DNA of 56,561 nt, taken from positions 1 to 56,561 of the forward strand of contig CAIXFN010000015.1 of assembly GCA_903918755.1 (NCBI GenBank), read 5' to 3'. Below are positions 9,227 to 53,760 of this stretch, piece by piece; position 1 is the first letter of the stretch, and the number at the start of each line of letters is the position of its first letter. Source of the DNA: an uncultured Pedosphaera sp. (GTDB lineage Bacteria > Verrucomicrobiota > Verrucomicrobiia > Limisphaerales > Pedosphaeraceae). A program made the position numbers and the translations under genes. The notes beneath the pieces are model-generated. The model worked only from the letters and a program-made list of their open reading frames with translations. It did no database searches and was not told the origin of the DNA.

Positions 9227-9958
9227 TTACCGGCCCGGCTTCGGCGTGAGGATCAAGTTCCCGTCCTTCACTACCACACTCTCCAACCGGCGGATACCGG
9301 CCCCGTTCGTGGGATCATTGGCCAAACTTTGCGCCAAGTTCTGCGATTGGAGAAAGGGCAGGAACTCTTTCGGCAGGGATTTGCCCCGCGCTTCAAACGA
9401 TTCGAGGTTGGCCCACAGGATGCCATTGGTCAAAGCAATGTGTAAACTCGCCGAACCGTTGAGGTAGCGCCCTTTGAGATCGATCAGCGGGACTTGAACG
9501 TCATTGAGCGGCACGCTGACCTGCGCTTTGATGACATCCCCTTCAATCGTCAATCGCATCGGGTTGGCGGAACCATCCCCTTCCCGCGAACTGGCGATCC
9601 AATTATTCAAATCGGCACCGTTCAACACCAGCGGCGCGGCATTGCTGCCCGCATCCAGCGCCTGCATGAAACTCGTGATCCGTTTGTCCAGGGCTTCCCG
9701 CTCTTCCTTGCTGGGCTTGGCTTGCTCCAGCGCCAGGGGCTTGGTGTCCAGGATGTCGGTCACCAGAGAATGCGCTTCCTGACGCACATACCGGATGACG
9801 AGGAAGACCGCCAATCCCCCCATCAAAAAGAGCACCAGCAGAATGATGAGGCCCCACATCAGGCAACCGAGCCCTTTGCGTTTGGGCGGGGTGGGCGGCT
9901 GGGACGGGGTGGTGGGAACCGGAGTTTGGACTTCGTTCATAAGCGTTATAGTTTCCAT
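9227..9958 (-). CDS. Single-pass membrane protein of unknown function
   Basis: 243 residues, not recognised. A proline-rich cytoplasmic N-terminus (residues 10-26) leads to KRKGLGCL and one strong transmembrane helix at about 33-56. The remaining 185 residues are predicted outside: an alpha-helical stretch (about 60-105), then an alternating hydrophobic beta-type region with LTIEGDVIKAQVSVPL and VVVKDGNLILTPK. The start could be ATG 9958 (overlapping the carbonic anhydrase end by 13 nt) or ATG 9940; neither has a clear Shine-Dalgarno. It is the last gene of the NfeD-flotillin-carbonic anhydrase operon, which suggests, but does not show, a membrane-associated role. Confidence 0.65.
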   Translation of the reverse strand: METITLMNEVQTPVPTTPSQPPTPPKRKGLGCLMWGLIILLVLFLMGGLAVFLVIRYVRQEAHSLVTDILDTKPLALEQAKPSKEEREALDKRITSFMQALDAGSNAAPLVLNGADLNNWIASSREGDGSANPMRLTIEGDVIKAQVSVPLNDVQVPLIDLKGRYLNGSASLHIALTNGILWANLESFEARGKSLPKEFLPFLQSQNLAQSLANDPTNGAGIRRLESVVVKDGNLILTPKPGR

Positions 9959-10809
9959 TTGCGGACGTTGGGGGTCGGGCGTATCCGCGGGGGCAGCGGC
10001 AACCGCCCGGGAACCGGCGGCGGCGGCCGGATCGCCGCCGGGGCGGCCCCGGCGGCGGGAGTAGGTCCCAGCCGGGGCGGCACTTCCACGCGCGGAATTC
10101 CCTCACCGATCAAATCCCCCGTTCCGGCGCCGTACTCCCCGATTTTGCTCGTGGGAAATTTCATTTCGCCCAGTTGGAACCCGGCCATTCCAGAGAGTGC
10201 ACCGATCGCCTCCCCGTTGTCCTTCCCCAGGGAATCCGGTCGTCGGGCGGGTGCCTGCTCCAGGACCTGATAACCATTCACCACCCATTCCAATTGACCC
10301 GTGGCGATATCCACCATCAGGCCGTGAACGGGGATGCGCGGCCCGATCAGCGGACTGCCGCGTGTGATTTCCACCGCCTTGATTACATTCTGGCGTTCGC
10401 TGGCAAACAGTCCGAAAAAATCCAGCAGGTTTTCCGGCAAAGCCGCCCGTTCCACCCCCAAGGCCCGAAATGCCTCGGTCAGTTTCATGATGGAGGACTT
10501 GGCCACCAGGCAATCCGTGTGGCCAATGATGGCGATCTCCCGGCCATTCTTCACCGCACAGGCCAGCGCCAGCGACCGCATCGTGCTGCTCACCGGTCCG
10601 GTAATGATATTCCCGGCATTCCGCAGCCAGATGAACTGCTCCTTGGGCAACCCCAGCACACCGGGAAACAGGGCGTTCAACCGCGCATCAATGCACGTCA
10701 ACACCGCCACCGGCAGGGCGTCCGCAAACTCTGCCAGGTGCAACCCCGCCTCCGCGTCCCCGGCCAGCGCGCGCTGGTTGGCGTCGATGATGGCTTCGAA
10801 CAAGCGCAT
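9946..10809 (-). CDS. Beta-class carbonic anhydrase with proline-rich C-terminal tail
   Basis: 287 residues. Beta-carbonic anhydrases interconvert CO2 and bicarbonate at a zinc ion bound by two Cys and one His. The ligands are visible: the CIDAR motif supplies Cys and the Asp-Arg dyad (residues 38-42), and GHTDC supplies His and Cys (about 95-99); WLRNAGN lies between, as expected. The catalytic domain spans about residues 1-190. The last 50 residues are rich in Pro, Ala and Arg and are not part of the family core; they may be a flexible tether or a protein-contact region. The gene lies 5 nt after the PLDc_N-type gene and overlaps the next gene, so it is inside the flotillin operon. Confidence 0.85.
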   Translation of the reverse strand: MRLFEAIIDANQRALAGDAEAGLHLAEFADALPVAVLTCIDARLNALFPGVLGLPKEQFIWLRNAGNIITGPVSSTMRSLALACAVKNGREIAIIGHTDCLVAKSSIMKLTEAFRALGVERAALPENLLDFFGLFASERQNVIKAVEITRGSPLIGPRIPVHGLMVDIATGQLEWVVNGYQVLEQAPARRPDSLGKDNGEAIGALSGMAGFQLGEMKFPTSKIGEYGAGTGDLIGEGIPRVEVPPRLGPTPAAGAAPAAIRPPPPVPGRLPLPPRIRPTPNVRKWKL

Positions 10810-10814
10810 GCGTC

Positions 10815-11069
10815 TCAGCCCGGCGGCGACTGACCGACCGCTGGGCGGGGTTTCCGGCCGGCAAAAAAGTAGATCACCGCGCCCAGGAAATGCAGCAACG
10901 CAATCACCAGCACCCAGGCCACCTTTTCATTGCCCATGATCCGCTCGTCCTTGATACAGTCCACGAGCATCCAGATCCAGAATGCCGTGCACGCCAACCC
11001 CACCGGCACCAATATCAGGGCGAAAAGAATCAACACCAATTCCCCGCCGCCCACAAATGCTCCAATCAT
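10815..11069 (-). CDS. Small two-helix membrane protein, PLDc_N (cardiolipin synthase N-terminal) type
   Basis: 84 residues from ATG 11069, chosen over the longer frame because a good Shine-Dalgarno (GAAAGG) lies 6-10 nt upstream and the homologous fold starts here. It has two transmembrane helices around the signature FWIWMLVDCIKDE and a second helix ending GAVIYFFAGRK. This is the small PLDc_N domain that precedes the catalytic part of cardiolipin synthases, here free-standing, as in many genomes. A stand-alone role is not established; membrane lipid organisation is a guess supported by the flotillin neighbour. It is paralogous to the gene at 11105-11311. Confidence 0.75.
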   Translation of the reverse strand: MIGAFVGGGELVLILFALILVPVGLACTAFWIWMLVDCIKDERIMGNEKVAWVLVIALLHFLGAVIYFFAGRKPRPAVGQSPPG

Positions 11070-11104
11070 AATGCGCCTTTCACTTCTTCCGCTTTCCCGC
11101 CGTG

Positions 11105-11311
11105 CTACCGCCGCCGGCCCGCAACGAAATAGATCAGCGCGCCGAGGCAATGCAACAACACCACCACGAGAATCCACACGATTTTCTCGCCGGACTCCAG
11201 TCGCCGGTTGGTCGCGCAGTCCACGATCATCCAGATCCAGAATACGAACGCCGCGATTCCGATCACTAATCCAATCAAGCCTAACAACAATCCAATGGCA
11301 CCTGATATCAT
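11105..11311 (-). CDS. Small two-helix membrane protein, PLDc_N type (paralogue)
   Basis: 68 residues. Two membrane helices carry the same signature as the gene downstream: FWIWMIVDC, an acidic/basic loop (NRRLESGEK), then IVWILVVVLLHCLGALIYF and AGRRR. The start is supported by AGAGGA about 8 nt upstream. It lies 18 nt after the flotillin stop and 35 nt before its paralogue, so the pair arose by tandem duplication inside the operon. The positive-inside rule puts both termini outside or both inside, depending on the loop; this cannot be resolved by eye. Confidence 0.75.
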   Translation of the reverse strand: MISGAIGLLLGLIGLVIGIAAFVFWIWMIVDCATNRRLESGEKIVWILVVVLLHCLGALIYFVAGRRR

Positions 11312-11329
11312 GCTGATTCCTCTTGTATA

Positions 11330-12895
11330 TTATGTGGTCTTTTGGTCGTTTCCATCCGGCTCCATCGCCTGCTTCAAGGCCGGCACCTGGGCCAGTAATT
11401 TCTCGAATTTGATTCCCGTGAGGCTCTCGATCACCGGCGGCAACTGGCTGATGATTTGCGTCATGTCCCCGGTCAGCTTGCTCGCGCCGCCTCCCGGCCC
11501 ATTGCCGCTGTTGATGATCACCATCTTGTCCAGCTTCGCCAGCGGCTCGCTGATCTTCCCGGCCAGCTCGGGCAGGATGCGCACAATCATTTCAATAACC
11601 GCCGCCTCGTTGTACTGCTTAAAGGCATCGGACTTCAACCGCATGGCCTCGGCTGTCGCTGATCCTTGCGCCTCGATGATCGCCGCTTCCGCGAGCCCGC
11701 GCGCCTTGTTCGCGTCCGCCTCGGCCATACCCGTGGCCTTGGCCACATCCGCGTTCGCAAAACCCGTCGCCTTCGCCACATCCGCGTTGGCAAACCCGGT
11801 CGCCTTCGTCGCCGCCGCCGACCCCGCCGCCTCGGTTTCCAGTTGGAACTTCTTGGCGTTGGCCAACGTTTCCACGCGGTAGCGCTCGGCGTCCGCGGGC
11901 TTTTGCACCATCGCCTCCAACTCGCGCTGCTTGCGCAAGATTTCCTGTTGCTGGAGTTCGATCTGCTTTTGCTTCTCCACGATGCTGACCTGGACCTCCT
12001 CCGCCTTCACCAGTTGCCCGGTCTTGTACTTCTGCAAATCATACGCCAGGTCCGCCTCCGCCTTCCGCTGATTGACCACCGCCTGGTATTGCGCCACGTT
12101 CGATTGGTAATCCCGCTGCGCTTCCGCAATCTTGCTATCCGCCTGAAATTTCGCCTCCTGCCCGGCCTGCGTCGCTTGCGACGACCGGATCATCGCGTCC
12201 CGGTCCGCCTCCGCCTGGGCGATCTGCGCATCCCGCTTCACCTGCGCGATCCGCGGTTTACCCAACGCCTCCAAATACCCCTGACCATCCCGGATGTCGC
12301 GAATCGTGAAGCTCACGATCGAGAGGCCCATGTTCGCCATGTCCCCCGCCGCCACCTCCTGCACCTTGGAGGCAAACGCGTCCCGATTCTGGTAAATATC
12401 CTCCACCGTCATCGTCCCCAGGATCGCCCGCAAATGACCTTCCAGCGTTTGCGTGGCCACGTTCTTGATTTCGTCCACCGACTTGCTCAAAAACTGTTCC
12501 GCCGCCGTCGCCACCGAAACATCATCCCCTTTCACTTTCACCTGCGCCACCCCGTCCACCTTCACCGGCACGCCTTTGCTGGTGTAAACTTCCGGCGTCT
12601 GCACGTCGATGGTCAGCAACTCCAGCGACAGGACATCCACTTTTTCAATCACCGGATAAACGAACGTCCCCCCGCCCTTCACGATCCGGAAGCCGCGGAT
12701 GCGGGTCATCCCGTCCGGATCCACGTAGCTGTGCTTCTTGCCCGAAACAATGAGCACCTGGTTGGGGCCGACTTTCGTGTACCGGCTGAAAAACGTGACC
12801 GCGAGGAGGAAAAAGATGATGCCCAAGGCCGCCGGTACGATAATCACCAGTCCCGGCCACTCCGCAAGCATGGGTGAGAGAGTTGTCATATTCAT
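11330..12895 (-). CDS. Flotillin-like SPFH/band-7 membrane scaffold protein
   Basis: 521 residues, typical of bacterial flotillins (YuaG/FloT type), which form scaffolds of functional membrane microdomains. An N-terminal membrane helix (about 14-37) leads to the SPFH domain (about 40-215: KVGPNQVLIVSGKK, VKVDGVAQVKVKG, ILGTMTVEDIYQNRD). A long coiled coil rich in Ala, Glu, Gln and Lys follows (about 216-430), with the EA-rich repeats characteristic of flotillin, and a C-terminal domain with GNGPGGGASKL. Three near-identical 11-residue repeats sit at about 364-396. The NfeD-like gene directly upstream is the usual partner. Confidence 0.92.
   Translation of the reverse strand: MNMTTLSPMLAEWPGLVIIVPAALGIIFFLLAVTFFSRYTKVGPNQVLIVSGKKHSYVDPDGMTRIRGFRIVKGGGTFVYPVIEKVDVLSLELLTIDVQTPEVYTSKGVPVKVDGVAQVKVKGDDVSVATAAEQFLSKSVDEIKNVATQTLEGHLRAILGTMTVEDIYQNRDAFASKVQEVAAGDMANMGLSIVSFTIRDIRDGQGYLEALGKPRIAQVKRDAQIAQAEADRDAMIRSSQATQAGQEAKFQADSKIAEAQRDYQSNVAQYQAVVNQRKAEADLAYDLQKYKTGQLVKAEEVQVSIVEKQKQIELQQQEILRKQRELEAMVQKPADAERYRVETLANAKKFQLETEAAGSAAATKATGFANADVAKATGFANADVAKATGMAEADANKARGLAEAAIIEAQGSATAEAMRLKSDAFKQYNEAAVIEMIVRILPELAGKISEPLAKLDKMVIINSGNGPGGGASKLTGDMTQIISQLPPVIESLTGIKFEKLLAQVPALKQAMEPDGNDQKTT
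11708..11806 (-). repeat. Three 33-nt coding repeats in the flotillin coiled coil
   Basis: Encodes KATGFANADVA twice and then the variant KATGMAEADAN, an 11-residue period consistent with a hendecad coiled coil. The first two copies are nearly identical in DNA, so copy number could vary by slippage. Confidence 0.8.
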
Positions 12896-12922
12896 TCCAT
12901 TGTTTGATTTTACCCGCCGATT

Positions 12923-13483
12923 TTAACCGCGTGCCACGTAAAACTGCGACCCGACGATCCGCACGATCCGCACCTGCGTGCCCGCCGTCAGGGACAGCCC
13001 TTGCGCTTCCCGGGCGGGCGCCGTGTAACGCGAACCACCGGTCACGTATGCGATTTCCCCCACCCCGTCCGCCGGAATCGGGGAAATAATGTCCGCCTCC
13101 GCCCCGAGCAACTCGCTCACCTTGGATTCGCTGGAGCTTTGGGTGTGGGAAAAAACCTGCCGCATCAGCCAGAGAATGACGGTCGCCCCGAGCACCGCGC
13201 CCGCCAACGCCAGGGGCGCGCTCAAATACGGGGATTGCGTGCCGGGAAATTCGTGGAAAATCAGCCCCAAACCGCCGAAAACCGTGACAAAAGAAGTGAT
13301 CACCGTGGGACTCAACGCGGAAACCCCGGGCATATCACTGCCGTTATCCCCCGCCTCGGCATGCCCGCCGCTACCCCCCACATGCCCATCATGTCCCCCG
13401 CCAAAGAGGTGTCCGAAAAACGTGGACAACAATGTGAACACCAGTCCCACCACCAAACACCCGAGATAGATTTGAAAGTCCAT
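12923..13483 (-). CDS. NfeD-like membrane protein, partner of flotillin
   Basis: 186 residues from ATG 13483. It begins MDFQIYLGCLVVGLVFTLLS, a first membrane helix, then a Gly/His-rich loop (GGGHDGHVGGSGGH) and two further membrane helices (about 65-115). The C-terminal soluble part (about 125-186) is a small OB-fold-type beta domain, ISPIPADGVGEIAY to QVRIVRIVGSQFYV, as in YuaF and short NfeD proteins. The family is almost always encoded next to flotillins and is thought to organise membrane domains with them. The His-rich loop could bind metal but is not a family motif. It is the first gene of the operon, 27 nt before flotillin. Confidence 0.85.
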   Translation of the reverse strand: MDFQIYLGCLVVGLVFTLLSTFFGHLFGGGHDGHVGGSGGHAEAGDNGSDMPGVSALSPTVITSFVTVFGGLGLIFHEFPGTQSPYLSAPLALAGAVLGATVILWLMRQVFSHTQSSSESKVSELLGAEADIISPIPADGVGEIAYVTGGSRYTAPAREAQGLSLTAGTQVRIVRIVGSQFYVARG

Positions 13484-13811
13484 AACGCCGGTCCGGTCGG
13501 TTCTTGCTTGCTTGCCCCGATACTCCGCCAATTCCCCACCCCCGACAAGCCAATTAACCGGCCTGCTTCGCCTGCGGAAACCCTACCCCATAGGCGATGC
13601 GCTCGCATTTACAATTCCCCAGACCGTTTATAACCCCGCTGGACCACTTCCCGGCAACTCCTCCGCCTGCCAGGCAGGCAATCCGCCCCGCCGACGCCCC
13701 GAATCCGGCTTCGGAACCCACCGAAAAATTGCCTGCTCATTTCCTTGCCACGCCCGTCCGGTTGGCGTAATGTTCTCGTCACAAAACGCTTCGCGTTTCG
13801 TCCGACAGGTC

Positions 13812-14748: not shown

Positions 14749-15108
14749 ATGAACGCCAATTGCAATTGTCGGCACTGCAACAATCCAATCGAATTCGATC
14801 AAATCCAAGCTGGTTGTAACGCTCCTTGCCCCCATTGCGGATTGGAAACGGTCTTGTTTGTTCCAAGTGCCACGCCAAAGTGGTCGGCAACTCCCTCCAA
14901 ACAGAAAACCAGACAGTCCACTCGTTCGAAAGCCTTGGCTTGTTGTGCGGCTATCATGGGAATCGTCATCGGATGCTGGATTTATCAATCAAGGGTAGGA
15001 CTTTTGACCGACTCATTGACCGGCCTGTCAGTAGCGGATTATACTCCTAAATACATTCCGAAACATCTGCAAGCCAACCCCGGGGCGAGCACAAATCAGA
15101 ATCAATGA
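14749..15108 (+). CDS. Small zinc-ribbon membrane protein, hypothetical
   Basis: 119 residues, family not recognised. The first 35 residues hold a Cys-rich zinc-ribbon pattern (CNCRHCNN and, 17 residues later, CNAPCPHCG), a metal-binding knuckle pair. A basic linker with Ser, Lys and Arg follows, then one membrane helix at about 64-80 (CCAAIMGIVIGCWIY), with the C-terminal 40 residues on the far side. ATG 14749 is backed by a purine-rich Shine-Dalgarno (AGGAAAAGAG). The next gene starts 24 nt later, so the two form a pair. Zinc-ribbon proteins with one membrane helix are common and poorly characterised. Confidence 0.65.
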   Translation: MNANCNCRHCNNPIEFDQIQAGCNAPCPHCGLETVLFVPSATPKWSATPSKQKTRQSTRSKALACCAAIMGIVIGCWIYQSRVGLLTDSLTGLSVADYTPKYIPKHLQANPGASTNQNQ

Positions 15109-15132
15109 AACCATAAGTCAAAGCAAGCCTTC

Positions 15133-15480
15133 GTGACACAACCAAAAACAGTCCTTACAAAAGTGCTGCTGGATGTAACGGCGAATGCAGCGCTCTTTTT
15201 GATCGCCACGTTTGTCATCATCAAAATTGCCTCGTGGTCAAGGGGAATGGGTCTATTCCTCGCATGGATCGAAGCAATTTGCGCTCTCCTTCAGTCCCTC
15301 ATCGTAATTTCCCTCATCACTTCAGGAATCGGCGTCCGGGTAATGATCGCCCTTGGAAAATTCAAACGCCAAAGCGATGAAACCGAGTTAACATTGGCAA
15401 GCTTGTTGCGTGTGGCTGAGCTTGCAATCTGGATTGGGTGTTTGATTGCCCTCTACAGATTTTTTTATGGCTCTAATTAA
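15133..15480 (+). CDS. Small integral membrane protein, hypothetical
   Basis: 115 residues, start codon GTG. Three or four hydrophobic helices can be placed: about 13-30, 37-52, 55-72 and 92-110, with a polar segment KFKRQSDETE near 76-85. No family is recognised. It lies 24 nt after the zinc-ribbon gene and is followed by a terminator at 15521-15553, so the two-gene unit 14749-15553 is self-contained between terminators. Base composition is lower in GC than in the flanking chromosome. Confidence 0.6.
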   Translation: MTQPKTVLTKVLLDVTANAALFLIATFVIIKIASWSRGMGLFLAWIEAICALLQSLIVISLITSGIGVRVMIALGKFKRQSDETELTLASLLRVAELAIWIGCLIALYRFFYGSN

Positions 15481-15520
15481 TTCGGTCGCTCACTTCACTT
15501 GCGGCGCACAAGTTCCCGAC

Positions 15521-15553
15521 GGCACGGCGAGGGAAACTCTGCCGGGCCTTTTT
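15521..15553 (+). terminator. Rho-independent terminator
   Basis: Stem cggcgag (15525-15531) with ctc-t-gccg (15537-15544), loop ggaaa, extended by ggc/gcc, then five T (15549-15553). It ends the two-gene unit 14749-15480. Confidence 0.75.
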
Positions 15554-15661
15554 CGCAATCTGACTCGAACCGCGAATCGCTCAAATCATGATAAGAGCGA
15601 AGCGAGTCATTGACGGCAATTTAAACGAGACAAATCAAGTGTTTTTCCGCACCCTTACCCA

Positions 15662-16702
15662 ATGAGTATTGCAAAATGTCCGATCTGCGAATCGCCAGCA
15701 ATAGATTACGAACTATCACCCGATATCGGCAGCTTTAATTGCAGTCGTTGCGGACCATTCAACATCACGCCCAAGGGTAATCATCTACTGGCAAAGGTCC
15801 GCGCAAATCCCGAAATCATTGGAAATATTTCAGGTTACATTTTCGCACACCTAGGCATAGTCGTTGACGAGGAAAAAGCAACTTTTCTATTGAGCTTGCG
15901 CAGTCTATCCATTTCAGAAAAAGCAAATCTCCTATTTCAATTCATAACCAAACGGCACCCGAAAATCGGCGCGACTTTTTACCCGCCAGATTTCGCAGTC
16001 GAATCCGCCATTACTCAAATCAACATTGCTGGATCAGTTGGAACACGCGAGAAATTCTATTCTGATGGATTGGCGCTGACTGGAAGACCAGACGAATTCT
16101 ACGCAAATTGTGATAAAAATCTTAAGTGGTTGTCTTGCGCATCAATAAGCGACGGACCGGAATTGAAGTTCATTGTCAGAAAAATATTAATTGAGGAAAG
16201 ACGATATCTTGAAGTAGCTGGGCAAGATCGTCAGTTATCCATTACTCCTAAAGGATGGGATTATCTATCCAATAACCGTGACAACGCATCTCAAAGTACA
16301 ACCGCCTTCGTGGCAATGTGGTTCCACAATAAAATGGATCATATTTACAACAATGCCATTTACCAAAGTATAAGTGATGCTGGATTTACGCCATCACGAA
16401 TTGACGGGGTGCACCACAACAACAGGATTGATGACGAGATCAAGGTCCGCATTAAAGAATGCAAATTTTTAGTAGCTGATTTTACAGGGTGGCGTGGCGG
16501 GGTATATTTCGAGGCGGGATTTGCGCTTGGATTAGGAAAGCCCGTAATATGGACCGTCAAGAAGACCTACCTCAGAAATATCCACTTTGATGTCAGACAA
16601 TACGCCTTTATAACCTGGACGGAAAACGATCTGCCGGCATTTAGGAAGCAATTGCTAGATCGAATCAAATTGACGATTGGCAAAGGTCCAAAAGCGCTTT
16701 GA
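15662..16702 (+). CDS. Zinc-ribbon protein with TIR / nucleoside 2-deoxyribosyltransferase-like C-terminal domain; candidate defence effector
   Basis: 346 residues, clearly more AT-rich than the surrounding chromosome, which suggests transfer. Residues 1-32 form a zinc ribbon (Cys6, Cys9, Cys27, Cys30: CPIC and CSRC). Residues 35-205 are a mixed region of unknown fold, with a repeated short motif (ITPKGNHLL and ITPKGWDYL). Residues 213-325 look like a Rossmann-like TIR/2-deoxyribosyltransferase-type domain: TTAFVAMWF first strand, RIDDEI (Asp257, Asp258, Glu259), CKFLVADFTG (Asp273) and YFEAGFALGLGKPVIW with Glu284 in the catalytic-Glu position. Domains of this kind cleave the N-glycosidic bond of nucleosides or NAD and often act as immune effectors. 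No Shine-Dalgarno precedes ATG 15662. The defence role is inference. Confidence 0.65.
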   Translation: MSIAKCPICESPAIDYELSPDIGSFNCSRCGPFNITPKGNHLLAKVRANPEIIGNISGYIFAHLGIVVDEEKATFLLSLRSLSISEKANLLFQFITKRHPKIGATFYPPDFAVESAITQINIAGSVGTREKFYSDGLALTGRPDEFYANCDKNLKWLSCASISDGPELKFIVRKILIEERRYLEVAGQDRQLSITPKGWDYLSNNRDNASQSTTAFVAMWFHNKMDHIYNNAIYQSISDAGFTPSRIDGVHHNNRIDDEIKVRIKECKFLVADFTGWRGGVYFEAGFALGLGKPVIWTVKKTYLRNIHFDVRQYAFITWTENDLPAFRKQLLDRIKLTIGKGPKAL

Positions 16703-16796
16703 GCCAAAAAGCCCGGGAAGTTGGCAAAAAACAAGCTTTACAAAAGCAAATTCACTGGTGATTTTTAATGTCGCTGTGAGCAAAACTCGGCCCCGT

Positions 16797-16836
16797 GCCG
16801 TGAGAACCCTTGGGTTCCTATACTCACGGCTTTTTG
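16797..16836 (+). terminator. Rho-independent terminator
   Basis: Stem gccgtgag (16797-16804) with ctcacggc (16823-16830), an inner small stem (aaccc/gggtt) and then five T. It lies 95 nt after the stop of the AT-rich zinc-ribbon/TIR-like gene and reads on the plus strand. Confidence 0.8.
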
Positions 16837-17229
16837 TTTTCCGCCGGATGGTCGAAAGCGATCTCCACCCCCAAAACTTTGCGAGCGGGTTCGTTCTCCG
16901 CGACCCGGTCGCTGTCCATGGGCAACGGGGCCAGGGTCCCAGTCAGGTTCCGCACCCTCGCCGTCGGGTCGCCCCGTTCGCCCACGCGGAGGGCGGCCAA
17001 GTCGTTCTGGCGATCCGGGCTGAAGCGATCGGCGCAACGCGGCGCCGGATCGGGCTTTTTCCAGCACCACTGAGGCGGACAGGACCGGTCATTCCGGTGC
17101 TGCCCGATGGATGGGTTCGCAAGCCGCTGTTGCACAATTTGTCGACTACCGAAAACGAGCTGGTTATGCATTAGCGGAAGGTGGAAACCCTCTATCGCGA
17201 AAGCACTCTCCGAAAGAGCTCCGCCGCAC
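16837..17229. other. Intergenic tract, possible gene relic
   Basis: About 390 nt between the terminator and the end of the minus-strand gene at 17230. GC content returns to the chromosomal level. Frames of 60-115 codons are open on both strands with no start signal or recognisable domain, so no gene is called. The abrupt composition change from the AT-rich gene before it suggests a junction between sequences of different origin. Confidence 0.35.
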
Positions 17230-17964
17230 TCAAACTATTTGGTCGTAGATTCTCTCGAAAGTTGCATACAGGTTTTCATAACCTGCCCATTCGAGATAGC
17301 TTGGGTGCGTAATCTCCAGGACTTTTTGGCTTCCCAGACCTGCCTGAATTTGCCATTTCCGGGCGAGTTGTAGGTTGGGCCCAAGCACCCCCAGTGCATG
17401 GATGGATCGAAAGGCGTCCTCGCCGCAAATGAAAATGAGATCAGGCGCAATTGCGTCTATCTGTTCACGAAGCGCTTCCTTGTTGCGAAGGGCATGGTCG
17501 CGCACCTCAGCAGAGTTCAACTTCGTGACGTCTGGTCTGGAAGCCTTTTTCACATTAACCCAGGCAATCTTAGCGAGCGCATCTTGCAATGTCTGGACAT
17601 TCTCAGGACTCAAGTTGAGCAAACGCGGAAAGGCATTCCATTCCTCATGACTGACTTTGGAGCCGCGCTCAAGGGATCGCTGTAAAAGGTAAAGGACAAT
17701 TGCAAATCTCTGAACTGTTGGCACGCCCTTGCCGAGGCCCAGCACGTCATCTTTCCCCTGGTCCTGAATGTCAGTAACTCCTGATTTGTCGTACCCATAG
17801 GACTCGGCAAGAATGCAAAGAATGCGATAGCTTTGTTTTGCATAAACCTCTGGGCAAATGATCCCGTCATCAATGAATCCTTCCGTGTACGGGTCATGTG
17901 TTGCTTTGAGCAAATCGGTGATACGATTCTTTGCTTTGCGGTAATTTTCCAGGTCAAAGTTCAT
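17230..17964 (-). CDS. Hypothetical protein with uracil-DNA glycosylase-like features
   Basis: 244 residues, no exact family recognised. The N-terminal half has an acidic/aromatic loop (DDGIICPEVYAKQSYRIL), an amphipathic helical middle and VSHEEWNAFPRL. The C-terminal half resembles the UDG-like superfamily: an AWVNVKK strand (about 134-140), a helix ending APDLIFICGEDAF (about 173-185) and the late motif EITHPSYLEW (about 218-227), where UDGs place the HPS loop. The catalytic Asp/Asn motif cannot be fixed by eye. UDG-like proteins without repair activity occur in defence islands. It is divergent from an unusual 310-nt region upstream. Codon use is intermediate in GC. The functional call is tentative. 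Confidence 0.45.
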   Translation of the reverse strand: MNFDLENYRKAKNRITDLLKATHDPYTEGFIDDGIICPEVYAKQSYRILCILAESYGYDKSGVTDIQDQGKDDVLGLGKGVPTVQRFAIVLYLLQRSLERGSKVSHEEWNAFPRLLNLSPENVQTLQDALAKIAWVNVKKASRPDVTKLNSAEVRDHALRNKEALREQIDAIAPDLIFICGEDAFRSIHALGVLGPNLQLARKWQIQAGLGSQKVLEITHPSYLEWAGYENLYATFERIYDQIV

Positions 17965-18276
17965 CGGGGTAGTTAATTTATTGTAAAAGTGCTGAAATAG
18001 CTGCGCGAGAGCAACTCAAAAAGTCGCGCTCGAAGGGAAAGCTGCAGCACCCCCCGTGCTCTCTCCCGCTGACTGCCGCAGGCGCGACGAAGGAGCATAG
18101 TGCCCTTTCTGCCGCTCTGCGCGCCCGGTGGCATTCGCGAGCCCGAAGGGATGACTTGCAACCGGCATTTTCGCGTGCCTGTGGGTTCCGTCGTGCGCGC
18201 TGAGCACGAAGCCAAACCATTCGCACCACTCAACATCAGGAAGGCATGAAAACCACCGGTAACCCGCCGTATGCTC
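17965..18276. other. Unexplained 310-nt region, open in all three minus-strand frames
   Basis: Between the start of the UDG-like gene and the end of the MBL-fusion gene. All three minus-strand frames are open for 60-87 codons (to about 18236), yet none encodes a plausible protein (Arg/Ser/Cys-rich, low complexity). There is a 6-bp hairpin tcgtgc...gcacga at 18192-18210 and other short stems, and an AT-rich 30-nt tract (17965-17995) directly before the UDG-like start that could hold its promoter. A structured non-coding RNA or an accessory-element end is possible; tmRNA and RNase P RNA hallmarks are absent. Confidence 0.35.
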
Positions 18277-20106
18277 CTAACCCCGCCGCGCGTCGGCGTT
18301 GAGTTCCTGTTCCACTAACCGGGCGAGGTCCGCCATCCGTTGCAGGCTGCTCTCGGGAAACTGCCGGGGCCGCATGTCCACCAGGCACAGGGTGCCCAGG
18401 CAACTGCCGTTGGCGTGGAACACGGGAAAACCCGCGTAAAACCGGATGCGGGGTTCTCCCGCCACCAGCGGATTGTCCGCAAACCGCTCATCCAAAAAGG
18501 TGTCGGGCACGATCAACGGCTCGCGGTTGGCGACGGCATGGGCGCAAAAGGAAAGCTCGCGGGAAGTTTCCCGCGGGCCTGTCGCGGGACAGGACTTGAA
18601 CCATTGCCGATGCTCGTCCACCAGGGACACCAAAGCCAGCGGCACGCCCGCAAACGCCGCCGCCACCCGGGTAATCCGGTCGAATCGCTCCTCGAGCGGG
18701 GTGTCCAGGATGGCCAGTTCCCGCAGCGCGGCCAGCCGCGTGTCCTCATCCTCCGGCCGCGTGGCCGGAACCCAGCGACACGCGGACCGCATGATCCACG
18801 CCTCGATCTGGGCTTCCGCATATTGGGTGGTAAACGGGAAAATCAACCAGCGGGTCACGCCCGCCGCCCGCCCCTCGGAGACGCGTTCCCGGGCCGCCAC
18901 CACCACGATGGGGAGAGTTTGAAATCGCTGATCAGAGTTTGCTCGCAAGGTCCGGCAGATTTCCAAACCGTCAATTCTCCCCGGCAGGTCTTCCAACAGC
19001 AGCAGTGCTGGCGGCTCGGTCTCCGCCTGCCGCAAAATGGCGGCCCCCTCGGCCAAATGAATTGTCCGCACCCCGGCGGAGCGCGCGGCTTCCGCCAGCA
19101 CCAACGACCATTTGGCATCCGCCACCCCCAGGATGATCACGGAATCTTTAATGGCCGGGGCGGCGGCAAAAATGGCGGTGGCTTCGGCGTGGGCAAAATC
19201 GGCTTTGGCCGGGCCGGAGACCGCTAGCGCCAACTCCTGGCCGTCCGCTGCGGAGAAAACTTCCATTCCCGAACCCTGCTGCCGCAACGCCAGCCGGGCG
19301 GCCGCCTGGAGCCCATCAAGTTCGTCATCCGTCCGACCGGGATCATGATGCGACAGAGCCAACCGCTTGACCCCGGCGAGTTGGGCCATTTCCAGGACAT
19401 ATTCCACGGGACTATGGCCCCAGCCTTTGCGGCTGGCGGCATACTCCCGGTCAGTGAACTGGGCGTCATGAATCACCAGATCGGCCCCGGCCAGGAACTC
19501 GCTGTGCCGCAGGTCCAATTCGTGCACCGGCGATTGCGGTCCTGCTGGTCGCGCATATGGTTCATGGTCACAGGCATAAACCACGCGGGTGGCCCCCATC
19601 TCCAGGCGGTAGCCCAGCGTGAGCGCCGGGTGATTCAGATAGCGGGTGGTGATCCGAATATCGTCGATTTCAAATTCCCCCTCCAGCAGGTCATGAAAAC
19701 GGATGCTGGCGCCCATTTGCTCCAGGTTAACGGGAAAATAAGTGTGCTCCATTTGGCCCGCCAGTGCGTCCCGCAACGATCCCCCGAGCCCGTGCGGGCC
19801 GTAGATGTCCCAATGCCCGCCCGGAACAAACAGCGGGGCAAAAAACGGGAATCCCTGGATGTGGTCCCAGTGGGTGTGGCTGATCAGAATGGTCCCCCGC
19901 AAGGGCCCTTTGGCCTCCGCCAGGAGGGTTTGGCCGAGTTCATGCGCCCCCGTGCCGCAATCAATAATGACCAGCGCCCCACCCGGCGACGTCACTTGCA
20001 CGCACGATGTATTGCCACCGTAGCGCAGGGTCTTTCGCCCCGGTTTGGCGAGCGAACCCCGGGTTCCCCAAAAACGGACTTTTGCTTCAGAATTCATGGG
20101 CTGCAT
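18277..20106 (-). CDS. MBL-fold hydrolase fused to a pseudo-receiver and a GAF domain
   Basis: 609 residues in three parts. Residues 7-295: metallo-beta-lactamase fold of the RNase Z/PhnP-like type, with the GTRGS start, SHTHWDHIQG (His77, His79, Asp81, His82), NHP (His159), YACDHEP (Asp180) and LSHHDP (His253), so two metals should bind; such domains often hydrolyse phosphodiesters or cyclic nucleotides. Residues 320-440: a receiver-like domain in which Glu372 stands in the phospho-Asp place (LLLLEDLPG...DGLEICR) and the usual KPF is FPF, so it is probably not phosphorylated. Residues 455-605: a GAF domain starting RLAALRELAILDTPLEERFD with SFCAHAV and GTLCLVD, the sensor type common in diguanylate cyclases. 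It looks like a ligand-gated metallohydrolase; the substrate is unknown. ATG 20097 is an alternative start. Confidence 0.8.
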   Translation of the reverse strand: MQPMNSEAKVRFWGTRGSLAKPGRKTLRYGGNTSCVQVTSPGGALVIIDCGTGAHELGQTLLAEAKGPLRGTILISHTHWDHIQGFPFFAPLFVPGGHWDIYGPHGLGGSLRDALAGQMEHTYFPVNLEQMGASIRFHDLLEGEFEIDDIRITTRYLNHPALTLGYRLEMGATRVVYACDHEPYARPAGPQSPVHELDLRHSEFLAGADLVIHDAQFTDREYAASRKGWGHSPVEYVLEMAQLAGVKRLALSHHDPGRTDDELDGLQAAARLALRQQGSGMEVFSAADGQELALAVSGPAKADFAHAEATAIFAAAPAIKDSVIILGVADAKWSLVLAEAARSAGVRTIHLAEGAAILRQAETEPPALLLLEDLPGRIDGLEICRTLRANSDQRFQTLPIVVVAARERVSEGRAAGVTRWLIFPFTTQYAEAQIEAWIMRSACRWVPATRPEDEDTRLAALRELAILDTPLEERFDRITRVAAAFAGVPLALVSLVDEHRQWFKSCPATGPRETSRELSFCAHAVANREPLIVPDTFLDERFADNPLVAGEPRIRFYAGFPVFHANGSCLGTLCLVDMRPRQFPESSLQRMADLARLVEQELNADARRG

Positions 20107-21515: not shown

Positions 21516-21902
21516 TTAATCCGGCGGCGACTTTCGAGAATTCAAAAAAGTTTTAAACGCGGAACAACCGAACAACATGGGATAGTCTCGTTGCATCGCC
21601 GCCAAGGGCACTTTCCCCCACAGCAAATTTACCCACCGGTTCGGAAACTCCCGGCATTGCCGCGGCTTGACCTTTTGGATGACACACGAATTGCCCGCCA
21701 GGAAAACGCAGGATTGGTCATCCATTTCATTCAACGCCAACCCGCGGCGATCCTTCCGCAGCCGGGTGTGGGCTTCGATGAAGTCCTCCTCCTTCAAGTG
21801 CAAAAATGCCGCAATGCTCGCGACCTCCTCCGGCTCCAGCCGCACTTCACCCGGATGACGGCAGCAAGCACCGCATCGTTCGCATTGCAGTTCAAATTCC
21901 AT
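21516..21902 (-). CDS. YkgJ-family cysteine-cluster protein
   Basis: 128 residues. The YkgJ/CxxCxxCC family is predicted to bind zinc or an iron-sulfur cluster; its role is unclear. Visible ligands: Cys7, Cys10, Cys13 and Cys14 (QCERCGACC), then Cys65, Cys73 and Cys83 (SCVFL, CVIQKVKPRQCREFP), the usual pattern. The ATG at 21902 follows the stop of the HigA-like antitoxin with no intervening base, so it is translated from the same message. Such joining to a toxin-antitoxin locus is probably accidental. Confidence 0.8.
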   Translation of the reverse strand: MEFELQCERCGACCRHPGEVRLEPEEVASIAAFLHLKEEDFIEAHTRLRKDRRGLALNEMDDQSCVFLAGNSCVIQKVKPRQCREFPNRWVNLLWGKVPLAAMQRDYPMLFGCSAFKTFLNSRKSPPD

Positions 21903-22205
21903 TCAGGCGGGTTCCAAATCGAGCCGGACTTTGCAGCCCAAAACGCGGGCAGCTTTGCCCAAGGTATGAAGAGTCAGGGAGGGGTTGGATTCGTCCAACA
22001 GACGGTCCACGGCCGCGCGGCTCGTATTCATCCGCACCGCCATATCCGCTTTGGTCAGCGAGCTTTCCGCCAGCAGTCGCTTTAGCTGCAGACTGACCGC
22101 CTGCTTGAGCGCCCGGGTCTCCACTTCCGCGAGCAGTCCGCGCTCATCCAGGAAATCCCGGAAATCACCACCACGATGTTTGAGTTTGGCATTATTCATA
22201 ATCAC
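21903..22205 (-). CDS. higA: HigA-like antitoxin, XRE-family HTH
   Basis: 100 residues. Helix-turn-helix DNA-binding protein of the HigA type: LLAESSLTKADMAVRMNTSRAAVDRLLDE covers the HTH, followed by LTLHTLGKAARVLGCKV, typical of antitoxins that pair with HigB-like RNases. It overlaps the toxin gene by 14 nt, in the toxin-first order seen in higBA operons. It would normally bind its promoter and neutralise the toxin. Because the toxin carries a premature stop, the antitoxin may be an orphan kept for regulation, for defence against related toxins or by lack of time to decay. Gene name by similarity only. Confidence 0.8.
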   Translation of the reverse strand: MIMNNAKLKHRGGDFRDFLDERGLLAEVETRALKQAVSLQLKRLLAESSLTKADMAVRMNTSRAAVDRLLDESNPSLTLHTLGKAARVLGCKVRLDLEPA

Positions 22206-24007: not shown

Positions 24008-24409
24008 TCATTTAAGGAGGAGATTGCAACCTGCCTGTTCAAAATGATGATCCGCCGTCAGCACATCAAGCAAACCGCGTTCGCGCATTACCAATATGGA
24101 ACTGCAGTCAGTCAGTGTCCAACCCTTGTCGGCATATTGGTGGTACAAGTCCAGGGAATGATCGAACAATTCACGGGAAGCCGGCACCACTTCGCAAGCC
24201 GCCGACTGGCGCAAATGGGTAACAAAGGCACGAACACGCGAACGACATTCGGACGCGGCCAAGGCGTCAGCGACCTCCATCAGCACCCAATCCGTGGTCA
24301 GGAGGGCGGCACGCAACTCGCGCGAGAAGGACACCACCCTTTGGTGATGCTGGTCGCGCGCATTTAGCCGCGCCACGAAATAAAAGGCATCGGCGAAGAC
24401 AATCCTCAT
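24008..24409 (-). CDS. vapC: VapC-like toxin, PIN domain ribonuclease
   Basis: 133 residues. A PIN-domain RNase whose acidic active site is complete: Asp7 (VFADAFYF), Glu45 (LMEVADAL), Asp101 (TLTDCSSI) and Asp120 (TADHHF) would bind Mg or Mn. Family members cut specific tRNAs or rRNA when not bound by their antitoxin. Its ATG overlaps the stop of the upstream antitoxin gene (ATGA, 24409-24406), the usual coupling of these modules. The gene name is assigned by class only. Confidence 0.85.
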   Translation of the reverse strand: MRIVFADAFYFVARLNARDQHHQRVVSFSRELRAALLTTDWVLMEVADALAASECRSRVRAFVTHLRQSAACEVVPASRELFDHSLDLYHQYADKGWTLTDCSSILVMRERGLLDVLTADHHFEQAGCNLLLK

Positions 24410-24618
24410 GAACGCCGATGGCCGTGTAAATGCTGGTCCAAATTGGCGGCCAAATCGGAGGGAAGGTCAGTTGCCATCCCGTCGAAGTCCTGCAAGGTTT
24501 CCCAAAGGGTCGGCGGTTGTTCGGCCACAGCCTCGATGCGCACAACCGTGCCGGATGGCCAAGGCACATCGGCCGGCAGCACGATCTTTCCCTGCTCGAC
24601 GGTGGCGGTAATGCTCAT
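24406..24618 (-). CDS. vapB: VapB-like antitoxin
   Basis: 70 residues from ATG 24618 (MSITATVEQGKI); an upstream in-frame extension to 24654 is less likely. The N-terminal half, ATVEQGKIVLPADVPWPSGTVVRIEAV, is the AbrB-like/DUF104-type beta motif seen in antitoxins of PIN toxins, and the C-terminus DLPSDLAANLDQHLHGHRR is the toxin-wrapping tail typical of these partners. It is the promoter-proximal gene of the module and should both repress the operon and block VapC. Confidence 0.8.
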   Translation of the reverse strand: MSITATVEQGKIVLPADVPWPSGTVVRIEAVAEQPPTLWETLQDFDGMATDLPSDLAANLDQHLHGHRRS

Positions 24619-24760
24619 GGCAGCCAGTATAGCCCCGGTCCGCGCATCCGGCAATGGCCAGATTTAGCATGAAGATCGTTACCCAATTTGGGTTCAGGCT
24701 GATCAAAACAAAATTTCGATCCCCCCTCGCGGCGCGAATTCTCTAAATCGCCCCGCACGG

Positions 24761-31809: not shown

Positions 31810-32721
31810 ATGAACACGCCATCGATTACCCCCATTCCTTTCCACCTCCGTCGCCTCGCCCTCGCGGCCAGTGCGGCTGTGCTCACCTTGACCACCACCC
31901 TGGCACCCGCTCAGGACAACTTCAGCAAGGTCGAAATCAAAGTCACCAAAGTGGCGGGCAGCGTCTATATGCTGGAAGGTTCCGGCGGCAACATTGCCGT
32001 CTCCGTTGGCGACGACGGGGTCCTGATGGTGGACGATGAATTCGCCCCCCTGGCCCCCAAAATCAAGGCCGCCATCAAGGGACTCAGCGGCAAGCCCATC
32101 AAATTCGTCCTCAACACCCATTTCCATGGCGACCACTCCGGTGGCAATCCGGAGTTCGGCCGCGACGCCGTCATCGTGGCCCATGACAATGTCCACCAGC
32201 GCCTCAAAGCCGGCACCGACGGCAAGGCGCCGCTCCCGGAATCGCTGCCGGTCATTTCCTTTAATGACACCGCGACCGTTCACCTCAATGGCGAGGACAT
32301 TCGCGCCATCCATTTTCCCCACGGTCATACTGACGGCGACAGCGTCATTTATTTTCCGAAATCCAACGTGGTCCACCTGGGGGACGATTTCGTCACTTAT
32401 GGTTTCCCCTTTGTTGACACCGGCAGCGGCGGCAGCATCAGCGGCATGATTGCCGGCCTGGAAAAGGCCCTGGCCATGCTGCCCCCGGACGTCCGGGTGA
32501 TCCCCGGCCACGGCCCCATATCCACCCCGGACGACGTCCGCAAATTCATCGCCATGATGAAGGATACCCGCACCCTCGTGGCCAACGCCCTCCAGGCCGG
32601 CCAATCCGCCGAGGACATGAAAAAAGCCAACGTGCTGGCCAAATACGCGGACCTGGGCAAGGGTTTCATCAAGACGGATGCGTGGATCGAGCAACTCTGC
32701 GCGGATGTGAAAAACAAGTAA
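31810..32721 (+). CDS. Secreted MBL-fold metallohydrolase
   Basis: 303 residues from ATG 31810; the frame continues upstream inside the RNase gene, but a signal peptide begins at this Met (about 1-35, ending LAPAQ). Zinc ligands of the metallo-beta-lactamase fold are present: NTHFHGDHSGG gives His104, His106, Asp108 and His109, GHTDGD gives His173, HLGDD gives Asp192, and PGHGP gives His234. The sequence resembles the large class of periplasmic MBL proteins related to SoxH/quinoprotein relay hydrolases and subclass-like lactamases; substrate not known, and a lactamase role is not claimed. It lies 109 nt after the RNase gene and 219 nt before the UspA gene, on the same strand. Confidence 0.8.
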   Translation: MNTPSITPIPFHLRRLALAASAAVLTLTTTLAPAQDNFSKVEIKVTKVAGSVYMLEGSGGNIAVSVGDDGVLMVDDEFAPLAPKIKAAIKGLSGKPIKFVLNTHFHGDHSGGNPEFGRDAVIVAHDNVHQRLKAGTDGKAPLPESLPVISFNDTATVHLNGEDIRAIHFPHGHTDGDSVIYFPKSNVVHLGDDFVTYGFPFVDTGSGGSISGMIAGLEKALAMLPPDVRVIPGHGPISTPDDVRKFIAMMKDTRTLVANALQAGQSAEDMKKANVLAKYADLGKGFIKTDAWIEQLCADVKNK

Positions 32722-52788: not shown

Positions 52789-53760
52789 ATGTGCAGCAAT
52801 CAACCTAATTATCGACCCGTCCTTCTCGCCTTGCTCGTTTTGAGTTCACTCCCCTCCGCCCGGGCCGCTGGACCAACTCCCGTAAACCTCGGCTCCGCCG
52901 TCCACTTCACCATCCTCGCCGGGGCCGCCGTGACCACCACCGGCGGCGGCGTCATCAACGGTGATGTCGGCGCCAGCCCCATCACCGGCGCGGCCATTCT
53001 TCTCACCCAGGCCCAGGTGAACGGCACCATCTACTGTGTGGACGCCGCCGGTCCGGCCGGCTCGGTCATTGCCCCCGCCCTCCTGACGACCGCCATGGGT
53101 GATCTGACCGCCGCCATCAACGATGCCGCCGGGCGCTCGCCGACACCCTCTGGTTCGTTCCTGAATCCCGGGGCCGGCAATCTGGCCGGTTTGACCCTGG
53201 TTCCCGGACTCTACAAGTTCACCGGCACCGCCTTGCTCACCGGCTCGGATGTCACCCTTTCCGGCGGTCCGGACGATGTCTGGATCTTCCAAATCGCCAG
53301 TGATCTGGAGGTGGGCGACCACGTGCATGTCGTTCTCGCTGGCGGGGCCCAGGCCCGCAATATCTTCTGGCAGGTCACCACCTCCGCCACCATTGGCACC
53401 TTTTCCTCCTTCAAAGGCACCATCCTGGCGAATCAGGCCATCACCATGAACACCACCAGCGCCATGGACGGCCGGGCTTTGGCTTTCACCGCGGGAGTCA
53501 CTTTCAATGGCAACGTCGGCGGCACGCCCACTCCCGCTGCTCCCTTCTTTACGAGCATTACCCGCCCGACCGGCCATTCCACCATCCTGGTGCTGAACAC
53601 CACGGCCTACTTCCCCATCACCCTCCAATCCAGTCCGGCGCTCATGCCCGCCGTGTGGACCACAGTGGTCACCACCACCCCGGTGGCCACTCCATGGACC
53701 TATACGAATCAAAATTCCTCCGCCGCGCAGCTCTTTTACCGGGCTTTTATTAAGCACTAA
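52789..53760 (+). CDS. DUF3494-family ice-binding protein
   Basis: 323 residues. Signal peptide at about 1-26 (LLALLVLSSLPSARA). Residues 30-245 show the family pattern of the ice-binding beta-helix: VNLGSAVHFTILAGAAVTTT, GGVINGDVGASP, DLTAAINDAAGR, LAGLTLVPGLYKFTGTALL, DVWIFQIASDLEVGD, ARNIFWQVTTSATIG and FKGTILANQAITMNTTSAMDGRALA. These proteins bind ice and protect cells or inhibit recrystallisation in cold or frozen habitats, though many non-ice-binding homologues exist. The C-terminus is a short Thr/Pro-rich beta tail. The protein is secreted, so it would act outside or on the surface. REP-like repeats follow it. Confidence 0.85.
   Translation: MCSNQPNYRPVLLALLVLSSLPSARAAGPTPVNLGSAVHFTILAGAAVTTTGGGVINGDVGASPITGAAILLTQAQVNGTIYCVDAAGPAGSVIAPALLTTAMGDLTAAINDAAGRSPTPSGSFLNPGAGNLAGLTLVPGLYKFTGTALLTGSDVTLSGGPDDVWIFQIASDLEVGDHVHVVLAGGAQARNIFWQVTTSATIGTFSSFKGTILANQAITMNTTSAMDGRALAFTAGVTFNGNVGGTPTPAAPFFTSITRPTGHSTILVLNTTAYFPITLQSSPALMPAVWTTVVTTTPVATPWTYTNQNSSAAQLFYRAFIKH

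Follow-up and report, generated by a model that had tools for sequence, protein, structure and literature searches.

A metallo-β-lactamase-fold hydrolase joined to a pseudo-receiver and a GAF domain in an uncultured Pedosphaera: a possible ligand-tuned phosphodiesterase

Introduction

What controls a hydrolase whose attached receiver domain has lost the residues of phosphorylation, and what might such an enzyme cleave? A gene of an uncultured Pedosphaera sp. (Verrucomicrobiota) raises this question. We analyzed it within contig CAIXFN010000015.1, the whole 56,561-nucleotide stretch of which is called the window below. The original prediction, made from the letters alone, described a metallo-β-lactamase (MBL) hydrolase, a receiver-like segment with Glu at the phosphorylation site, and a GAF domain.

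Results

A three-part protein found in many phyla

The open reading frame at 18277..20106 (minus strand, as for all features of this gene; 609 amino acids) is a real gene, and its coordinates match the original prediction exactly. An MBL-fold hydrolase domain spans residues 9-294 (19225..20082), with a Pfam match to Lactamase_B_2 (PF12706) at residues 46-254 (E = 6e-17; 62.2 bits against a cut-off of 27). A pseudo-receiver at residues 322-442 (18781..19143) was recognized with AlphaFold and Foldseek; the Pfam match to Response_reg at residues 337-411 scored 21.1 bits, below the cut-off of 30.2. A GAF domain with its leading helix occupies residues 454-602 (18301..18747; PF01590 at residues 471-602, E = 2e-19, 71 bits against a cut-off of 22.4). 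The full-length AlphaFold model, built from 28 sequences including the query, had a mean pLDDT of 79.6 and a pTM of 0.51, making the single domains credible and their mutual arrangement not. The three parts predicted for this one reading frame were thus recovered by Pfam, AlphaFold and Foldseek.

Relatives were collected by scanning genomes with six peptide patterns of the query (three from the MBL domain, one from the receiver, two from the GAF domain) and taking the best 80 loci. This search favors the residues in HTHWDHIQ, GQMEHTYF and IHDAQFTD, and also proteins of the GAF type; H159, D180, H231 and H254 fall in none of the six patterns. Alignment of the query with 27 of the best 80 loci (alignment A1), all of the MBL-receiver-GAF layout, brought together proteins that their record titles assign to Verrucomicrobiota, Pseudomonadota, Actinomycetota, Nitrospirota, Rokuibacteriota, Myxococcota, Chlamydiota and others. 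Since the same architecture occurs in many bacterial phyla, we conclude that the protein is a real and widespread combination of known parts. Our literature searches, which covered titles and abstract openings of open-licence papers, found no description of it.

Pfam placed Lactamase_B_2 in every row of a 53-row alignment, Response_reg in 38 rows, GAF in 28, and cNMP-binding and GGDEF domains in 10 each. Absent from this alignment are fragments and split frames (L031, L043, L044, L060, L065, L075 and L076), L068, in which the BLAST match stops before the receiver, and other relatives matching short of the receiver. An 84-row tree of the MBL domain omits L031, L043, L044, L065, L075 and L076. 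Ten further relatives were picked mostly for long frames. Six of them had a receiver above the Pfam cut-off on the N-terminal side of the MBL domain, L091 had an AhpC/TSA domain there, and L068 was of the cNMP-GGDEF type. With Response_reg in 38 of the 53 rows and N-terminal receivers in six of the ten, receivers are recurrent partners of this type of MBL domain.

The MBL domain is likely a small-phosphodiester hydrolase

HxHxDH plus a His, an Asp and a His are the metal ligands of the MBL superfamily. The query has HTHWDH at residues 77-82 (19861..19878), H159 (19630-19632), D180 (19567-19569) and H254 (19345-19347), which we take, from knowledge of the family, to have these roles. All seven residues (H77, H79, D81, H82, H159, D180 and H254) were invariant in 53 of 53 aligned relatives, partly as an effect of the pattern-based search, and the ligands are intact as predicted.

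The segment SHTHWDH (residues 76-82) fits the motif of atypical class-II phosphodiesterases, [T/S]HXHXDH, in which X tends to be hydrophobic, small or very small (PMC9293780); the Trp of the query is hydrophobic and not small. Rv1339, YhfI and CpdA are termed atypical class-II phosphodiesterases, near RNase Z and perhaps derived from it (PMC9293780). YhfI prefers cAMP and cGMP, and Apyc1 has a broad range of cyclic mononucleotide substrates (PMC9117128). When the model was compared with known structures by VIA-align, the top match to the MBL domain was RNase Z (2cbn, Z = 25.1), with YhfI (6kns) at 24.1 and PhnP at 20.2. In the PDB sequence search of the domain, RNase Z was the best match and PhnP and ELAC1 also appeared. 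From its sequence and fold neighbors, the domain is likely a small-phosphodiester hydrolase. A cyclic nucleotide, as the original prediction had suggested, is a plausible substrate by the same neighbors and the motif.

The receiver fold is kept and its phosphorylation residues are lost

Because MBL and GAF matches filled the structural list of the full-length model and no receiver rows appeared, we folded residues 316-446 separately, using an alignment of 42 of the 53 receiver segments. The isolated segment formed a (βα)5 fold (pLDDT 92.3, pTM 0.87). Among the 50 Foldseek matches listed, nearly all were response-regulator receivers in the PDB, for example 3t6k (TM 0.83) and DivK (TM 0.86; both target-normalized). 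The fold prediction proposed for residues 320-440 thus returned a receiver.

None of the canonical residues (DD, D, T/S, K) is present in the query receiver. Val328-Ala329 (19120..19125) stand at the position of the acidic pair, Glu372 (GAA; 18991..18993) at that of the phosphorylated Asp, Ala404 (18895..18897) at that of the conserved Thr or Ser, and Phe423 (18838..18840) at that of the conserved Lys, as read from the alignment and the codons. Glu372 is the final residue of β3 in the model, where the phosphorylated Asp sits, and shares its alignment column with the phosphorylated Asp of canonical relatives. F423-P424-F425 occupies the K-P-F position, and Pro424 is invariant across the 53 rows. 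The original prediction was right about Glu372 and about FPF in place of KPF; it had overlooked the loss of the acidic pair and the Thr, and five residues are gone, not two. A pseudo-receiver is defined as lacking any one of the five conserved residues (PMC12632262). The query domain, with a predicted receiver fold and 0 of 5 residues, is one, and it also fits the definition of an aspartate-less receiver in the same source (PMC12632262).

Loss of the receiver chemistry was associated with added C-terminal domains. All five residues were retained in 0 of 28 proteins of the GAF type, 12 of 15 MBL-receiver proteins without GAF, and 0 of 10 MBL-receiver-cNMP-binding-GGDEF proteins. The loss needs no GAF domain, since three MBL-receiver rows without one (L045, L053 and L073) are degenerate. 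The GAF-type rows formed one group in the 84-row MBL tree (support 99/92) and in the 53-row tree (97/86), adjoined by six MBL-receiver rows of which three (L046, L047 and L056) are canonical. The GGDEF-type rows formed a separate branch (100/100 in the 84-row tree). On the 53 rows, with trees rooted at midpoints, the canonical or pseudo label required four changes, three of these being forced by well-supported branches. We infer that the canonical receiver is the ancestral state, since regain of five residues is unlikely.

The GGDEF-type chain, in which a putative phosphodiesterase and a cyclase stand together, was seen in 11 proteins counting L068 (L061, L063, L064, L066, L068-L072, L074 and L077). 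One Rokubacterial genome (G411) encodes both a GAF-type protein (L037) and a cNMP-GGDEF-type protein (L069), which makes it a natural setting for comparing the two.

The receiver was the least conserved part of the GAF-type proteins. In this group the MBL and GAF domains averaged 59.2% and 53.7% pairwise identity, and the receiver 27.7%. The 12 canonical MBL-receiver proteins had 58.3% (MBL) and 45.5% (receiver), and the GGDEF type 71.1% and 48.3%. The best conserved helix of the pseudo-receiver was α5 (residues 427-442; 18781..18828), our proposed link to the GAF domain. Identity in this helix was 46% among GAF-type proteins, 48% among the canonical ones and 79% in the GGDEF type (ten aligned), and the four other receiver helices measured in the GAF group had 13-25%. 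Since the receiver is at 27.7% overall but α5 is at 46% and Pro424 is invariant, this pattern of sequence conservation fits a receiver that was maintained for its shape and its coupling role rather than to transfer phosphate.

Glu372 varies among GAF-type proteins

Column 372 held Glu in 15, Asp in 7, Gly in 2, Ala in 2, Gln in 1 and Thr in 1 of the 28 GAF-type proteins. An acid was thus present in 22 of 28, while the first position of the acidic pair was acidic in 0 and the second in 1 of 28. Retention of an acid here suggests some residual preference at a site that may not be fully free to vary. Among fragments outside the 53-row alignment, L031, L043 and L044 have Glu and L065 has Asp, and Glu is shared by the query and its Verrucomicrobial relatives L018, L019 and L025 (L025 being truncated by the end of its contig). 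The state of the column required 13 changes on the best tree of the 53 rows; well-supported branches alone force fewer changes. Of the two findings that the original prediction had named as speaking against it, one was absent, residue 372 being equivalent to the phosphorylated Asp, and the other, homologs with Asp at that site, was present.

The GAF domain resembles that of Dcsbis

The predicted intact GAF domain was confirmed by the PF01590 match. It superimposed on the GAF domain of Dcsbis (4zmu) with 42% identity and an rmsd of 1.3 Å over 164 residues (Z = 26.7). The Dcsbis domain is described as dimerizing, as not binding cAMP or cGMP, and as having no known ligand (PMC4937426). Three further proteins encoded in the host genome have similar GAF segments (42-47% identity); two (L002 and L003) combine them with histidine-kinase domains and the third (L004) has PAS domains (696 of its 911-residue frame covered). 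Its presence alongside such domains indicates a widely reused input module.

Plasmid records matching the whole protein numbered 2237, 1675 of them from Klebsiella, and 0 covered 80% of the protein. With the MBL domain alone the number fell to 241, mostly from Rhizobium and Sinorhizobium, from which we infer that the Klebsiella matches are probably to the GAF domain only. The one phage match covered residues 454-603, again only GAF. Mobile carriage of the whole protein was therefore set aside.

Class III cyclase matches and a lack of GGDEF matches in the host genome

The genome (7.19 Mb, 96.9% complete) gave five class III cyclase matches above cut-off and 18 cNMP-binding matches, 17 of them above cut-off and several within one protein. 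A profile search detected no GGDEF domain in this 96.9% complete genome; the control was positive in 8 of 14. Five cyclases and no GGDEF domain favor a cyclic mononucleotide over c-di-GMP, as a correlation. We set c-di-GMP aside as substrate for this host, on the basis of the missing GGDEF match, but not for the family at large, as 23 of 26 other genomes with GAF-type proteins have GGDEF domains. The three without a match are those of the nearest relatives, L018 and L019, and of L034, and these genomes may be incomplete. As a correlation, this speaks against c-di-GMP in the branch to which the query belongs. The genome also has 11 PF12706 stretches including the query (7 above cut-off), and with ten others, six of them above cut-off, the query need not be the main phosphodiesterase.

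Each of the 26 further genomes searched that encode a GAF-type protein gave a class III cyclase match. So did 46 of the 47 genomes from which other MBL relatives came (G411, in this set, encodes a GAF-type protein as well) and 64 of 145 genomes in a phylum sample that included the host. Co-occurrence is therefore too unspecific to serve as proof of a substrate, and the Fisher test (26/26 versus 63/144, p = 7e-9) was left unused because genome size and lineage differ. The MBL family is tied to signaling by its fusions, to cNMP-binding and GGDEF domains in 10 of 53 rows (and L068) or to an N-terminal receiver in six of ten further relatives.

Distribution and neighborhood

Seven other genomes of the host's taxonomic family had no relative at E ≤ 1e-50. 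Of 387 genomes of the phylum, 8 matched at E ≤ 1e-60; apart from the query's own genome, the remaining 7 matched over the MBL part only. Such scattered occurrence suggests that the gene was transferred horizontally or often lost. One record, L028, is labelled 'Halobacteria archaeon'; its protein falls among those of Ectothiorhodospiraceae (branch 0.13) and its genome has 23 GGDEF matches, making the contig or bin label doubtful.

When open reading frames from 31 GAF-type loci, many of them with short flanks, were clustered together with those from part of the window, no conserved neighbor gene that would point to a pathway emerged, which given the short flanks is a weak negative. The large clusters were the gene itself and overlapping frames, as judged from coordinates, and one group of long frames recurred in three loci (L038, L041 and L065). 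A terminator-like hairpin lies at 20250-20234 (minus strand) between the upstream PDZ gene and the MBL-receiver-GAF gene, and no sigma-70-like promoter was found; both are weak evidence. PADLOC gave no match for the protein.

Other features of the window are noted for orientation. Positions 15001-18000 have a low GC content (0.485, versus 0.59-0.64 in neighboring 3-kb windows) and include a TIR-like protein (15662-16702, plus strand; PADLOC TIR effector E = 4e-11, Nuc_deoxyrib_tr below cut-off) and a uracil-DNA-glycosylase-superfamily protein (17230-17964, minus strand; Pfam). The stretch was possibly acquired and is perhaps defense-related. A PIN-domain protein (24008-24654, minus strand) and an overlapping upstream frame of 82 amino acids without a Pfam match look like a VapBC-type toxin-antitoxin pair. 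A Cro/C1-type HTH gene (21516-22205, minus strand) adjoins a gene for a putative metal-chelating protein with CxxCxxCC, and a row of frames at 9946-13531 (minus strand) has carbonic-anhydrase-like, PLDc_N, flotillin (Band_7/Flot) and weakly NfeD-like members. A second, marginal PF12706 stretch lies at 32083-32334 (plus strand; 28.4 bits against a cut-off of 27, in a 407-residue open frame), and an Ice-binding-like protein at 52789-53760 (plus strand; PF11999, E = 6e-54).

Discussion

The explanation that we find best, which we put at slightly short of an even chance, sees in the protein a stand-alone phosphodiesterase of the MBL fold, with its own C-terminal GAF domain tuning the activity through the pseudo-receiver. 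An ancestral MBL-receiver protein under phosphorylation control would have acquired a C-terminal GAF domain. The receiver would then have lost its phospho-chemistry and persisted as a folded coupling piece, with α5, running toward the GAF domain, chiefly retained as the coupling element. The GAF domain would probably dimerize and bind a small ligand that is neither cAMP nor cGMP; through the pseudo-receiver it would alter the MBL domain. The likeliest substrate would be a cyclic mononucleotide (cAMP or cGMP) or a similar small phosphodiester. This explanation is favored by the canonical receivers in 0 of 28 GAF-type versus 12 of 15 MBL-receiver proteins and by near-equal divergence of the MBL domains in the two groups (59.2% and 58.3% identity) beside receivers at 27.7% versus 45.5%. 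It is weakened by the about equal closeness of RNase Z and YhfI in structure (Z = 25.1 and 24.1) and by an RNase Z profile scoring above the cyclic-nucleotide one (64.9 versus 35 bits).

The same nearness to RNase Z, which led the structural MBL matches, the NCBIfam scores and the PDB sequence matches of the domain, gives weight to an alternative in which the MBL domain serves as a nuclease, or acts on some phosphodiester (an RNA end, a 2',3'-cyclic phosphate or a cyclic ribose phosphate) other than a cyclic nucleotide second messenger; the PhnP match (Z = 20.2) points the same way. However, all such NCBIfam profiles fell far below cut-off (RNase Z, TIGR02651, 64.9 bits against 292.95), as did that of the cyclic nucleotide-degrading phosphodiesterases (NF041851, 35 bits against 400), and the sensor and signaling domains fused in relatives are more in keeping with a signaling enzyme than with a nuclease of housekeeping function. 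We consider this alternative an appreciable possibility, though not the one we would choose.

Two other alternatives were weighed. In one, Glu372 mimics the phosphorylated Asp and holds the receiver, and so the hydrolase, constitutively active, much as the original prediction had it in speaking of an active-like lock. Glu is at the correct position, an acid is retained in 22 of 28 proteins despite loss of the acidic pair, Glu recurs in the query, L018, L019, L025 and the fragments L031 and L043, and in many response regulators Glu can mimic the phosphorylated residue (PMC12632262). But such mimicry perhaps works via the Thr and Lys, and these are replaced here by Ala and Phe; Glu is the most frequent replacement in Asp-less receivers, and its phosphomimetic role has been disproved in some instances (PMC12632262). 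The column is Asp in 7 and non-acidic in 6 of 28 and needs 13 changes of state on the best tree, and the residue at K+2 is Phe, which shifts CheY toward inactive forms (PMC12632262). The lock is thus unsupported and very improbable in our view; Glu372 looks like one outcome in a receiver that lost phospho-control. In the other alternative, the pseudo-receiver and GAF domain merely hold a dimer of a constitutive enzyme. The weak conservation of the pseudo-receiver would allow this, as would a related GAF domain that dimerizes and has no known ligand (PMC4937426), but GAF identity of 53.7% versus 59.2% for MBL is more than a scaffold seems to need, an indirect comparison to be read with two of the six search patterns lying in the GAF domain. 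We think a pure scaffold unlikely.

Returning to a GAF-tuned phosphodiesterase, we compared the query with known systems. YhfI of Bacillus subtilis, Rv1339, CpdA of Corynebacterium glutamicum and Apyc1 are single-domain enzymes not known to carry a receiver or GAF domain. The query shares with them the MBL fold (YhfI, Z = 24.1) and [T/S]HXHXDH (PMC9293780). It differs in its low score with the NCBIfam phosphodiesterase profile (35 of 400 bits), and its activity is a prediction. With RNase Z (2cbn, 1y44), it shares the fold (Z about 25) but reaches 64.9 of 292.95 bits with TIGR02651 and has a receiver and a GAF domain, neither of which RNase Z is known to carry. Like Asp-less and pseudo-receivers (PMC4395418, PMC12632262), in which Glu is the commonest replacement (PMC12632262), it has a receiver fold without the phosphorylated Asp; it differs in having lost all five residues and in placing the domain between MBL and GAF domains. 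The main texts of these two sources do not contain the terms 'lactamase' or 'GAF'. The GAF domain is shared with Dcsbis (PA2771; 4zmu), whose output is a GGDEF domain, whereas its partner in the query is the MBL domain. In animal PDE2 and PDE10, a GAF sensor governs a cyclic nucleotide phosphodiesterase whose catalytic domain is unrelated to MBL, a logic like that proposed for the query; by comparison, the nearest GAF domain to that of the query, from Dcsbis, does not bind cAMP or cGMP (PMC4937426).

A broader proposal, which we offer as speculation and regard as rather unlikely in full, is that MBL-receiver phosphodiesterases exchanged phosphorylation for ligand control at least twice, by gain of a GAF domain and by gain of a cNMP-binding and GGDEF tail, each time losing the receiver chemistry, and that the GAF group is a widespread, undescribed set of GAF-controlled cyclic mononucleotide phosphodiesterases. 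If true, these proteins would be a bacterial counterpart, in logic, of the animal GAF-phosphodiesterases. One set of relatives pairs the MBL output with a canonical receiver, and two others pair the same output with a sensor-linked pseudo-receiver, so that working and defunct receivers can be compared directly next to one type of enzyme in one family. If the substrate is a cyclic nucleotide, the query would be a ligand-regulated phosphodiesterase in a bacterium that possesses class III cyclases and in which no c-di-GMP synthase was detected.
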